Positions 25,669 to 30,214 of a stretch of 35,975 nucleotides of DNA are shown one piece after another; within the stretch, counting starts at the first letter, position 1, and the number at the start of each line of letters is the position of its first letter. The position numbers and the translations under genes were made by a program. The stretch is taken from assembly GCA_937900875.1 (NCBI GenBank), contig CALCGD010000195.1, positions 1-35,975 on the forward strand, given 5' to 3'. This stretch comes from an uncultured Flavobacteriales bacterium (GTDB lineage Bacteria > Bacteroidota > Bacteroidia > UBA10329). Below the pieces are notes generated by a model. It was not told the DNA's origin, ran no database searches, and saw only the letters and a program-made list of their open reading frames with translations.

Positions 25669-26289
25669 GTGAAGCGCCAACTTCTAATATCAGCTTTTGT
25701 CACGCTTAGCCTTTTTGGCTGGGCACAGGAGACAAATGGTAAGATTAAGTTTCTTGCTAAAATTGAAACTCGAAATACATTCTTTCAAACACACCACGTT
25801 ACTATGCTTGGGATAAGAGCGGGGTTTGAGTTTAAATTCCCTGTTCGGTGTGGCATTGGATACTATTGGACCCTCACAAAAATTGATTCTAAGCTTTACA
25901 AGGCTTCCGATTATGGCTTGACTGATCCGAAAGCTCAGCCTCGAATGCGTTACGCGTTTGGCTATGTCGACTATAGCTTTTATAAAGAAGACGATTGGAC
26001 TCTTTCTGTTCCAGTCCAAATTGGTTTTGGGGAGACATATTACAAAAGCAACGAGTCCAACCGTTTCGCAAATGACCTAATAATCCCTATGGAAGCGGGT
26101 GTTGCTGTTGACTACCTTTTCACCGAATGGGTTGGCTTTGGGGTAGGACTAGGCTACAGGGTTTTATTAAAAGGAAACAAGCAGGTAAAAGAGAATTTCA
26201 ACTCACCTTATTACCAAATAAGGTTAAACATCCTGTTCACCGAAATATTTCGAGGATTAAAAGCAAAGAAAAAAGCGAAACACGGTTAG
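25669..26289 (+). CDS. Small exported protein, probable outer-membrane beta-barrel
   Basis: I do not recognise a named family. The 206 residues begin with a signal peptide ([20 protein letters not shown]), then alternate aromatic and polar residues in a pattern of about eight beta strands with Gly-rich turns ([35 protein letters not shown]). The pattern suggests a small OmpA/OmpX-like barrel. The C-terminus is basic ([11 protein letters not shown]), which is odd for a barrel, where an aromatic end is common. GTG 25669 is the only usable in-frame start that keeps the signal peptide; the upstream frame runs through the terminator hairpin into a stop. Its stop interlocks with that of metH on the other strand. 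Confidence 0.6.
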
Positions 26290-28958
26290 TCGTAATTCAA
26301 ATTAGGACTTAACCACCTTTCTACTTCCTTTACTTCCATTCCTTTCCGCGCAGCGTAATCTGCCACTTGGTCCTTTTCAATTTTCCCTAATCCGAAGTAC
26401 TTGCTTTCCTGATGTGCAAAATAGAAACCGCTAACTGATGACGCTGGCATCATTGCTAGGCTGTCAGTTAAGGTCATTCCAGTAATAGAACTTGCATTAA
26501 GCAATCTGAACAACTCTGGTTTTTCAGTATGATCCGGACATGCAGGATAGCCTGGAGCTGGGCGTATGCCACGATACTTCTCTCTGACCAATTCTTCATT
26601 GGAAAGTTTAGCAGAATCATACCCCCAAGTTTCTGTTCGGACTACTTCATGCAACTTCTCCGCAAATGCTTCTGCTAATCGATCGGCTAAGGCTTTTAGC
26701 ATGATGGAGTTATAGTCATCATGATCGGCTTCAAATTCAGCTAGTTTTTTCTCGATTCCTAATCCAGATGTGACCGCAAATCCACCCATGAAATCTTGTA
26801 ATCCCGTTCCCTTAGGAGCAACAAAATCTGCTAAGGCCAGGTTAGCCACACTAGCGGCTTTTTTAGATTGCTGTCGCAATGAATGAATCGTAGAAAGCAC
26901 TTCTGAACGGCTTTCGTCTGTGTAGAGTTCTACATCGTCACCAACAGCATTTGCAGGCCAAATACCTACAACCCCGTTTGCAGTCAGCCATTTCTCATTA
27001 ATAATACGCTTGAGCATTGCTTGTGCATCGGCAAACACTTTCGTAGCTGCATCTCCCACAACGTCATCTTCCAAAATCTTTGGGTAACGCCCAGCCAACT
27101 CCCATGTTTGGAAGAATGGTGTCCAGTCTATGTATTCCACCAATTCGCTCAGTGGGAAGTCTTTGAACTCCGTCAATCCCAATTTGTTTGGAGCTTGAAT
27201 ATCTTCCTGCTTCCAATCGATTTTGAACTTGTTTTCTCTAGCAACTTCTAGCGATACAAATTGCTTATCCGCACGCTTACGAGCATGCATTTCACGCATA
27301 TGTGCGTATTCTTCCTTAAGGTTGGAAACAAAGGCTTCTTTCTTGCTTCCCAGTAAACTTTCAACCACCGTTACCGAACGGGAAGCGTCTAATACATGAA
27401 CTGCTTGTCCGCGCTTGTATTTCTCTTCAATCTTAACCGCTGTGTGAACGCGAGATGTAGTGGCACCACCGATCAATAGCGGAATGTCAAACCCAGCATG
27501 CTCCATCTCTTTGGCCAGATGCACCATTTCGTCCAATGATGGTGTTATCAAACCACTCAGCCCAATCACATCCACCTTCTGCTCCTTGGCTTCTTTCAGA
27601 ATTCTCTCAGCAGGAACCATCACGCCTAGGTCAATCACTTCGTAATTGTTGCATGCAAGCACAACCCCAACGATATTCTTACCGATATCATGAACGTCTC
27701 CTTTTACAGTTGCAAGCAAGACTTTTCCAGATTTGGATGCTGTTCCGTCAGCATCTTGTTCCATATATGGAAGCAAATACGCTACCGCTTTCTTCATTAC
27801 TCGCGCACTCTTTACCACTTGTGGCAAGAACATCTTTCCAGCACCAAAAAGGTCGCCCACGATGTTCATTCCAGCCATCAACGGCCCTTCAATTACATGC
27901 AGTGGCTTTTCGGCTTTCAGACGCGCTTCTTCCACATCCACCTCAACATAATCCGCCATTCCTTTTACCAAGGCGTGCGATAGGCGCTCTTCTACGGGCG
28001 CTTCTCTCCACGATAAATCCTCAACTCTTTCTCTAGTTGTTCCAACAAAGGTTTGAGCAAATTCTAAAAGTGCCTCGGTTGCATTCTCATTCCGATTGAG
28101 CAAAACATCTTCCACTCTTACCAACAACTCCTTTGGAATTTCATCATAAACCTCCAACATGGTTGGGTTCACAATTCCCATGTCCATTCCATGCTGAATA
28201 GCATGATACAGGAAGGCAGAGTGCATCGCCTCTCGAACAGGGTTATTTCCTCTAAACGAGAACGAAACGTTACTTACTCCACCGCTCACCTTGGCTCCTG
28301 GAAGATTTTCTTTAATCCATTTAGTGGCATTGAAAAAGTCTACAGCATTATTATTGTGCTCGTCCATTCCCGTTGCAACAGGGAAAATATTTGGGTCGAA
28401 AATGATGTCTTGTGCAGGAAAACCAACCTTGTCTACCAACACATCATACGATCGCTTACATATTTCTATTCTGCGCTCGTAGCTGTCTGCTTGTCCATTT
28501 TCATCAAATGCCATAACCACTGTGGCGGCACCATATCGCTTAATCTTTTTAGCGTGCTCAATAAATTGCGCTTCGCCTTCTTTTAGGCTGATGGAGTTAA
28601 CCACCGATTTCCCTTGAACACATTGCAATCCTGCCTCAATAATCTCCCACTTGGAGCTATCAATCATAATTGGAATACGCGAAATGTCTGGTTCTGCAGC
28701 AAGCAGATTCAGGAATTTCACCATAGCCTCTGCACCATCAATCATTCCCTCATCCATGTTGATGTCGAGCACCTGCGCACCGCCTTCAACTTGGTCGCGA
28801 GCAACCGCTAGGGCTTCATCGAACTTATCTTCCTTGATAAGCCGAAGGAACATGCGTGAGCCTGTGACATTGGTTCGTTCCCCGACATTAATAAAATTGG
28901 AACCAGCAAATACTGTTAATGGCTCAAGACCACTCAGTTGTAAAGGAGGAATTTTCAT
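26286..28958 (-). CDS. metH: Methionine synthase, folate- and cobalamin-binding part (split MetH)
   Basis: The C-terminal three modules of B12-dependent methionine synthase, 890 residues. The pterin-binding domain begins at LSGLEPL and shows [16 protein letters not shown] (22-37). The cap and cobalamin domain contains DVHDIG at 421-426, with His423 as the lower cobalt ligand, followed by [14 protein letters not shown]. The reactivation domain at the end carries the SAM-binding signature [15 protein letters not shown]. Together with the upstream protein it transfers the methyl group of methyltetrahydrofolate to homocysteine. The ATG lies 3 nt behind the stop of the homocysteine half and in the same frame. 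The operon is led by a SAM-I riboswitch. Confidence 0.96.
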
Positions 28959-28961
28959 TAA

Positions 28962-29981
28962 TTAAGCTTCTACTTCTTGGTTTGCAACTCGCGGTTGATA
29001 CTGTGCCGCTATTTCAGCGATAGCCCTAATGTGTGGAGGAGTTGTTCCGCAGCAACCGCCAATTACGTTTATTAGGTTTTCACGAAGAAAGTCTTCTATC
29101 TGTTCCGCCATCATTTCTGGCGTCTCATCGTATTCTCCAAATTCGTTAGGCAAACCTGCGTTTGGATGTGCGCTCACGTTGTACTGAGATTTTGCAGCAA
29201 GCACTTGCAGATACGGTCTCAGCTGCGAAGCACCTAAGGCGCAGTTAAAGCCAATACTCATCAGCGGAATGTGAGACACAGAAATTAAGAATGCCTCTGC
29301 TGTTTGACCAGAAAGGGTTCTTCCGCTTGCATCGGTAATTGTCCCTGAAACCATGATTGGAATGCGGAAACCGAGCTCATCAAACAATTCGTCAATTGCG
29401 AAAAGAGCTGCTTTTGCATTGAGTGTGTCAAATACGGTTTCAACTAAAAGAATGTCCACACCTCCTTCAATCAAAGCTTTTGCTTGGTCTCTGTAGGCTA
29501 TGCGCAATTCGTCAAATGTTACGCCTCTAAATCCTGGATCATTCACATCTGGAGAAAGGGAAGCCGTTCTGTTTGTCGGTCCCATGGCACCCGCCACAAA
29601 ACGTGGTTTGTGTGGTTCTTTTGCTGTGAGCTCATCGGCTACTTCGCGTGCAATTTTAGCCGATTCGTAGTTGATCTTGTACACTGCATCTTCCAAGCCA
29701 TAATCTGCTTGGGCTATAGTGGTTCCGCTAAACGTGTTGGTTTCGGCAATGTCTGCTCCAGCTTCGAAGTACTGTCTGTGAATATCCTTGATAATCTCAG
29801 GTCGGGTAATAGAAAGAAGGTCGTTGTTTCCTTTTAATGGCTTCTCGGCATCCTTAAAGTATTCTCCGCGGTAATCTTCTTCTTCCAGCTTATGCCGTTG
29901 AATCATTGTTCCCATAGCACCATCCAAAACGAGTATTCGTTCTTTCAGGGCTTTCTCTAGTAATTCGGTTCTGTTGCTCAT
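28962..29981 (-). CDS. metH: Methionine synthase, homocysteine-binding part (split MetH)
   Basis: The N-terminal homocysteine S-methyltransferase module as a separate 339-residue protein. It begins [22 protein letters not shown]. The zinc ligands are Cys247 (GFNCALG), Cys310 and Cys311 ([12 protein letters not shown]). It binds homocysteine through zinc and receives the methyl group from the cobalamin half made by the next gene. The break falls exactly at the natural linker between the two barrel domains of full-length MetH. The leader carries an S-box riboswitch and attenuator. I recall that split MetH occurs in other Bacteroidota, so this looks like a lineage feature and not decay. Confidence 0.96.
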
Positions 29982-29992
29982 TTCAATCCAAT

Positions 29993-30024
29993 AAAAAAGC
30001 CTCCAACGATTACTCGTTGAAGGC
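29993..30024 (-). terminator. Attenuator of the metH leader
   Basis: On the - strand, an 11-bp stem (30024-30014 with 30009-29999, one G-U pair) with a GTAA tetraloop is followed by six T (29998-29993). It ends about 12 nt before the metH ATG, so it can only act as a conditional terminator downstream of the riboswitch. Confidence 0.92.
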
Positions 30025-30060
30025 CCTGTTTGTTCAGTTTATAAATGTTCTCACATTTTG

Positions 30061-30165
30061 CTTATCTCTTTCTCTGCTTACGCGGAGAATAGGATTTGGC
30101 ACCTTCCTTTTCAGGGGTTGCCAAGACTTCGTAGGGCCTTATCCCTCAGTCTTTCTTGATAAGAA
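30061..30165 (-). promoter_or_regulatory. SAM-I (S-box) riboswitch upstream of metH
   Basis: Read on the - strand, the S-box core is all present. P1 is CTTATC (30163-30158) paired with GATAAG (30066-30061). Next comes J1/2 AAGA, then P2 AAGACT/AGTCTT flanking GAGGGATAAGGCCC. TTGGCAACCC leads to P3, then GGTGCCAAATCC forms J3/4, and P4 is TTCTC/GAGAA. The GG in the P2 loop can form the pseudoknot with CC of J3/4. SAM binding should stabilise this fold and allow the terminator at 29993-30024, shutting metH off. It controls both metH parts. Confidence 0.95.
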
Positions 30166-30183
30166 TAAATAAAGAACGAGCCG

Positions 30184-30214
30184 CGAAGTTAGGCACCAAA
30201 CTTCAGAGTTCAAA
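30184..30214 (-). promoter_or_regulatory. Candidate promoter of the metH operon
   Basis: On the - strand, TTTG (30214-30211), a 19-nt spacer and taacttcg (30191-30184), which matches TAnnTTTG at 7 of 8 positions. Transcription would begin near 30178, a few bases before P1 of the riboswitch. Confidence 0.55.

Follow-up and report, generated by a model that had tools for sequence, protein, structure and literature searches.

A proposed L2/P2b antiterminator in the S-box leader of metH in an uncultured Flavobacteriales bacterium

Introduction

How does an S-box riboswitch govern its terminator when the outer helix of the aptamer finds no partner in the terminator arm? The leader of metH in an uncultured Flavobacteriales bacterium raises this question. 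Riboswitch expression platforms share the principle of strand exchange, with the switching sequence most commonly placed in the first helix (PMC10907184). P1 provides the switching strand in most riboswitches (PMC2258182), and a P1 strand does so in SAM-I (PMC3656099).

The window analysed here is the whole of a 35,975-nt stretch (contig CALCGD010000195.1, assembly GCA_937900875.1), to which, among named relatives, MAGs under labels such as Flavobacteriales UBA10329 come closest. An earlier note, made from its letters, had pointed to a perfect complementarity between the L2/P2b region of the aptamer and the 5' arm of the terminator, and had proposed that these two strands form the antiterminator. 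We have followed up this proposal by folding the leader and by comparing it with leaders of the same genus and of the class.

Results

By its sequence the leader element is a true SAM-I (S-box) aptamer, for which SAM binding is predicted: the minus strand matches the Rfam SAM model (RF00162) from 30165 to 30059 with 81.9 bits, against a gathering threshold of 44.4, and all model positions (1-108) are covered. An intrinsic terminator lies 3' of the aptamer and 5' of the regulated gene; a terminator scan recovers a hairpin at 30027-29996 followed by a T tract, and the terminator ends 12 nt upstream of the metH ATG at 29981 (Table 1). The metH locus (26286-29981, minus strand) consists of two adjoining genes, coding for 339 aa and then 890 aa, the longer of which we take to be the pterin-, cobalamin- and activation-domain part. 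The predicted promoter, TTTG-N19-TAACTTCG, called on the Bacteroidota consensus, starts right after the stop codon of the upstream gene, and the genus alignment has a TAnnTT[TC]G box at the same place.

Table 1. Features of the metH leader and locus in the window (minus strand; positions of the whole stretch).
Feature	Coordinates	Strand	Basis or detail
Predicted Bacteroidota-type promoter	30184..30214	-	TTTG (30214-30211), 19-nt spacer, TAACTTCG (30191-30184)
Conserved 5' leader GTTCTTT	30171..30177	-	genus alignment and folding
SAM-I (S-box) aptamer	30059..30165	-	RF00162 covariance-model match; P1 = 30163-30158/30066-30061
L2 (AAGG, pseudoknot strand) and P2b 3' strand (CCCU); proposed antiterminator strand	30133..30140	-	
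J3/4 CCU, partner of L2 AGG (30139-30137) in the pseudoknot	30091..30093	-	place in RF00162 alignment
Hairpin AAATGT-GAGA-ACATTT, between P1 and terminator	30043..30058	-	sequence; kept in six species
AGGGCCTT, terminator lower 5' arm; proposed antiterminator strand	30020..30027	-	
Intrinsic terminator	29993..30027	-	stem 30027-30014/30009-29996, T tract 29998-29993 (six Ts)
metH first half, 339 aa, homocysteine methyltransferase domain	28962..29981	-	
metH second half, 890 aa	26286..28958	-	ORF

On the minus strand the octamer AAGGCCCT (30140-30133) is a perfect 8-nt complement of AGGGCCTT (30027-30020), as the earlier note had read it. In the aptamer, its AAGG forms the 3' portion of loop L2 and its CCCT the 3' strand of P2b. 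The AGG of L2 is complementary to the CCU of J3/4, both standing at the places expected for the L2-J3/4 pseudoknot, which presumably forms here as in the known SAM-I structure. The GAGA hairpin that the same note had placed between aptamer and terminator is also found, and is kept in six species; it may serve as the bridge that the note proposed.

Folding makes the octamer the predicted partner of the terminator arm. The energies given here are for nested, SAM-free structures that leave out the pseudoknot, and rest on what is effectively one energy parameter set. In growing transcripts the aptamer fold prevails before the arm emerges, and the 8-bp helix enters the lowest-energy fold once 30020 has been transcribed (-38.0 kcal/mol just before, -44.7 after); once the 3' arm is complete, the terminator wins (-57.5 versus -52.1 kcal/mol). 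Before that point, of 21 combinations of transcript ends, 20 give the helix a probability of 0.87-0.95 and one gives 0.41. Moving the 5' end between 30184 and 30163 leaves the prediction intact, the partial exception being an early 3' end in the longest transcript, and the helix is preferred to the state with P1 formed by 4.4-4.8 kcal/mol between 15 and 37 C. Replacing GGG by CCC in the terminator arm in silico brings back the aptamer fold, and folding offers the arm no other partner. The prediction of P2b/L2, the strand proposed in the note, is robust to the assumed 5' end and to temperature. The direct nested path from aptamer to antiterminator meets a barrier near 16 kcal/mol and would be slow; the change would have to occur during transcription, before P1 closes, or by way of a pseudoknotted intermediate with L2/P2b open and P2a and P1 still in place. 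SAM and the pseudoknot, both left out of the nested energies, would favour the aptamer, as a switch requires.

The 5' leader was considered as a further element. A GTTCTT box lies 3' of the promoter in all genus leaders, and other families have GTTCAT there. In our folds GTTCTTT has a partner in each state: the P2b 5' strand when antiterminated, the GAGAAC that follows P1 when the aptamer forms. The latter pairing, of GUUCUU (30177-30172, minus strand) with the GAGAAC of the GAGA hairpin (30051-30046), can lengthen P1. Both segments are invariant in the six species, so covariation offers no evidence for it. A specific role of a 5' leader hairpin in sequestering the P2b 5' strand was rejected, as shuffled 5' leaders give equal gains; since shuffling does not weaken the switch, the role of the 5' leader is unproven.

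The classical alternative, that an antiterminator made with the P1 3' strand exists and was missed by our tools, has in its favour the behaviour of the class and the rule generally followed by SAM-I riboswitches (PMC2258182, PMC3656099), and we consider it very improbable. The best duplex of the P1 3' strand (30068-30057) with the terminator arm reaches -1.7 kcal/mol versus -14.6 for P2b/L2, and adding the hairpin to the P1 3' strand only brings it to -3.1; pairing of the P1 3' strand carries no mass in any of the eight genus leaders. The absence of a terminator partner for this strand, already remarked upon in the note, is thereby confirmed, and folding yields no more stable P1 3' antiterminator. 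For the class, we collected 42 leaders with a detected terminator, of which 40 are distinct (8 from the genus, 32 others), and all counts ignore relatedness. Outside the genus, 28 of the 32 leaders have the P1 3' strand within the predicted partner of the arm, against 0 of the 8 inside it, which indicates that the genus lost the classical arrangement or never had it; six of its members are predicted to have the P2b/L2 arrangement instead. A pattern search of 396 genomes of the class for an S-box with GGGCCT at this spacing found none outside this genus; the pattern occurs in three genomes of the genus (G000, G002, G005), and the other matches look like chance matches in coding sequence. Searches at genus, family and order level return the same nine genomes, so nothing is sampled between genus and class.

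Within the genus, eight of the nine genomes have one S-box each, always before metH, and one (G006, 94% complete) gave no S-box match. In all eight leaders a terminator sits between aptamer and start codon. In six of them the 5' arm is complementary to the L2/P2b 3' strand and prefers it before the 3' arm is made: these six keep GGGCCTT and GGGCCTTC..GGAGGC, and the same octamer helix is predicted in each. Fourfold-degenerate sites of metH are saturated (25-45% identity among the genus members that could be compared), and across the six leaders the octamer columns are 96% identical versus 45-56% in P4 and the linker, with 7/8 invariant columns in the octamer, 2/22 in P4 and 3/13 in the linker.

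The terminator itself covaries in the six species, three pairs of its upper stem having changed on both sides. In its lower half, all six retain an internal U.G pair, and opposite the U tract stand two Gs of the 5' arm, which form G.U pairs there except that one of the two pairs is G-C in one species. In sequence, the lower terminator resembles one whose 5' arm is tied to a second partner as well. A constitutive terminator, or one serving mainly another purpose, with SAM control exerted on translation or RNA stability, is very improbable: many relatives in the class do have metH S-box leaders with no recognisable terminator, but here the terminator covaries and keeps its position between aptamer and start codon in all eight genus leaders.

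Covariation of the octamer helix itself, to which the note had appealed, did not materialise: among the genus leaders there are 0 compensated pairs and 3 broken outer-pair cells. The outer pairs are broken without compensation in L003 (aptamer CAGGCCCA) and L004 (arm TGGGCCTT), and the six inner pairs never vary. This test has little power because the aptamer side (30133-30140) is nearly invariant, fixed by SAM binding, and we therefore set aside covariation of the octamers as a proof. The two remaining leaders, L002 and L005, form a sister clade with other terminators, lacking both the octamer and GGGCC. For their arms (GCCCCTC and GCCCATCC) folding gives a weaker pairing, to the P2b 5' strand/L2, that stays within the range of random terminators. 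The idea that they are independently rewired cases (P2b 5' strand with CCCCUC or GCCCAUCC) was consequently dropped.

These observations bring up the alternative that the octamer is a coincidence of a GC-rich arm and a sticky GGCCC, attenuation being achieved by some other form of competition between the terminator and the folding of P1 and the aptamer, for instance by the linker hairpin or by kinetic folding. Besides the missing covariation and the absence of the octamer in L002 and L005, null comparisons give it some weight. We used 44 other terminator-like hairpins of the genus, drawn from 20 stretches of related genomes and the window. When these are placed behind the eight genus aptamers, roughly 10-70% pair first with P2b/L2. 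Measured by pairing with GGCCC against such random terminators, L006 and L008 are similar to the window and L003, L004 and L007 weaker; by the energy gain of their own arm, only L001 and L007 win clearly. Class-wide, 8-bp helices to GGCCC occur in 12 of 122 leaders versus 6.5 expected, and outside the genus most involve the terminator 3' arm. On the other side, 0 of the 44 hairpins reach a complementarity of at least 8 nt to the window aptamer (maximum 7), none exceeds 6 nt to the P2/L2 segment, and about 95-98% of random terminators fall short of the window's arm in pairing with P2b/L2. Counting both strands, 428 kb of genus DNA contain AGGGCCTT 6 times. The octamer by itself is thus unusual (a few percent or less), still possible by chance, and not decisive, because GGCC can pair with itself and GGCCC is both exposed and sticky. 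Against coincidence also speak the lack of another predicted partner of the arm and the retention of the octamer at saturation in six species, including bases that the terminator does not need. We regard coincidence as unlikely, though a serious contender.

A different complementarity appeared in the wider comparison. The region after P1 contains a complement of at least 8 bp to the aptamer 5' strand (J1/2, P2a) in 59 of 122 class leaders, versus 23 of 122 expected from dinucleotide shuffles. In many metH S-box leaders of Flavobacteriia and Cytophagia, a linker segment such as CTTTTCTTGATGACA complements P1 5', J1/2 and P2a 5'; examples are L112, L065, L046-L087, L080, L083, L098, L057 and L054, the longest complement being 25 bp in L112 (4-28 downstream of P1). 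Pairing at variable J1/2 positions exceeds that in shuffles (p about 0.002-0.008, relatedness ignored), and the J1/2 bases covary with the linker, with CC facing GG in L080 and L083 and GA facing TC in L057. This excess, together with the counts above, suggests that many Bacteroidota metH leaders may switch with the 5', not the 3', strand of P1, a possibility that may merit separate study.

Discussion

We propose, with a probability of roughly 0.55, that the switching strand of this leader is the L2/P2b 3' segment in place of the P1 3' strand. This reading is the best supported because of the folding, the lack of a P1 3' partner, conservation at saturation and the difference between genus and class. 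The earlier note's antiterminator thus stands as far as the predicted partner of the arm and the lack of a P1 3' antiterminator are concerned, and finds no backing in covariation or in the two leaders of the sister clade.

The leader would act as a SAM-I riboswitch of the split metH operon, working by transcription attenuation and OFF with SAM. When SAM is absent, the 5' arm of the terminator (AGGGCCUU) would invade the P2b hairpin as it emerges: its CCUU would take the unpaired L2 bases AAGG as a 4-nt toehold, and its AGGG, identical to the P2b 5' strand, would displace that strand from CCCU. Indeed, in its sequence the octamer looks like a strand-displacement invader, a likeness that the earlier note does not mention. 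With the arm caught in the resulting 8-bp antiterminator and unable to reach its 3' partner, metH would be transcribed. With SAM, L2 would be held in the pseudoknot with J3/4 and P2b locked; the toehold would be gone, the terminator would form and metH would be off. We infer that the helix forms in the cell and acts as a regulatory antiterminator, gated by toehold and pseudoknot.

The SAM-I attenuator of Bacillus subtilis yitJ has the same aptamer architecture, the same OFF logic and a terminator before a methionine gene, but switches of its type use a P1 strand, where the window leader is proposed to use the L2/P2b 3' strand. The same difference exists within the class: the Bacteroidia leaders L011, L018 and L026 share the aptamer and the terminator position, but their arm pairs with the P1 3' strand and the adjoining linker (AGTCAGAG with CTCTGACT), not with P2b. 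Our proposal can be likened to AdoCbl and SAM-II riboswitches, in which a loop or pseudoknot, not P1, couples the ligand to the platform (PMC2258182). Those are other aptamers, and their ligand-bound state contains a pseudoknot to the platform, whereas here the platform would compete with the pseudoknot. In a literature search of limited and incomplete coverage we found no description of an S-box with a P2b/L2 platform, which is weak evidence of novelty.

The chances are about even that in one S-box lineage the switching strand has shifted away from P1 to the L2/P2b arm, giving a switch that works by toehold strand displacement at the pseudoknot side of the aptamer, in which the terminator arm mimics the P2b 5' strand and a SAM-stabilised pseudoknot excludes it. 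The P2b/L2 mechanism would give a known riboswitch class a new variant of expression platform. If it is true, platform predictors that examine P1 alone will miss such switches, and these leaders would offer a natural toehold-type switch in which to study how SAM gates strand exchange. It would also mean that, inside a single riboswitch class, the point at which the S-box aptamer is coupled to its platform is able to shift, the pseudoknot arm taking over from the outer helix.
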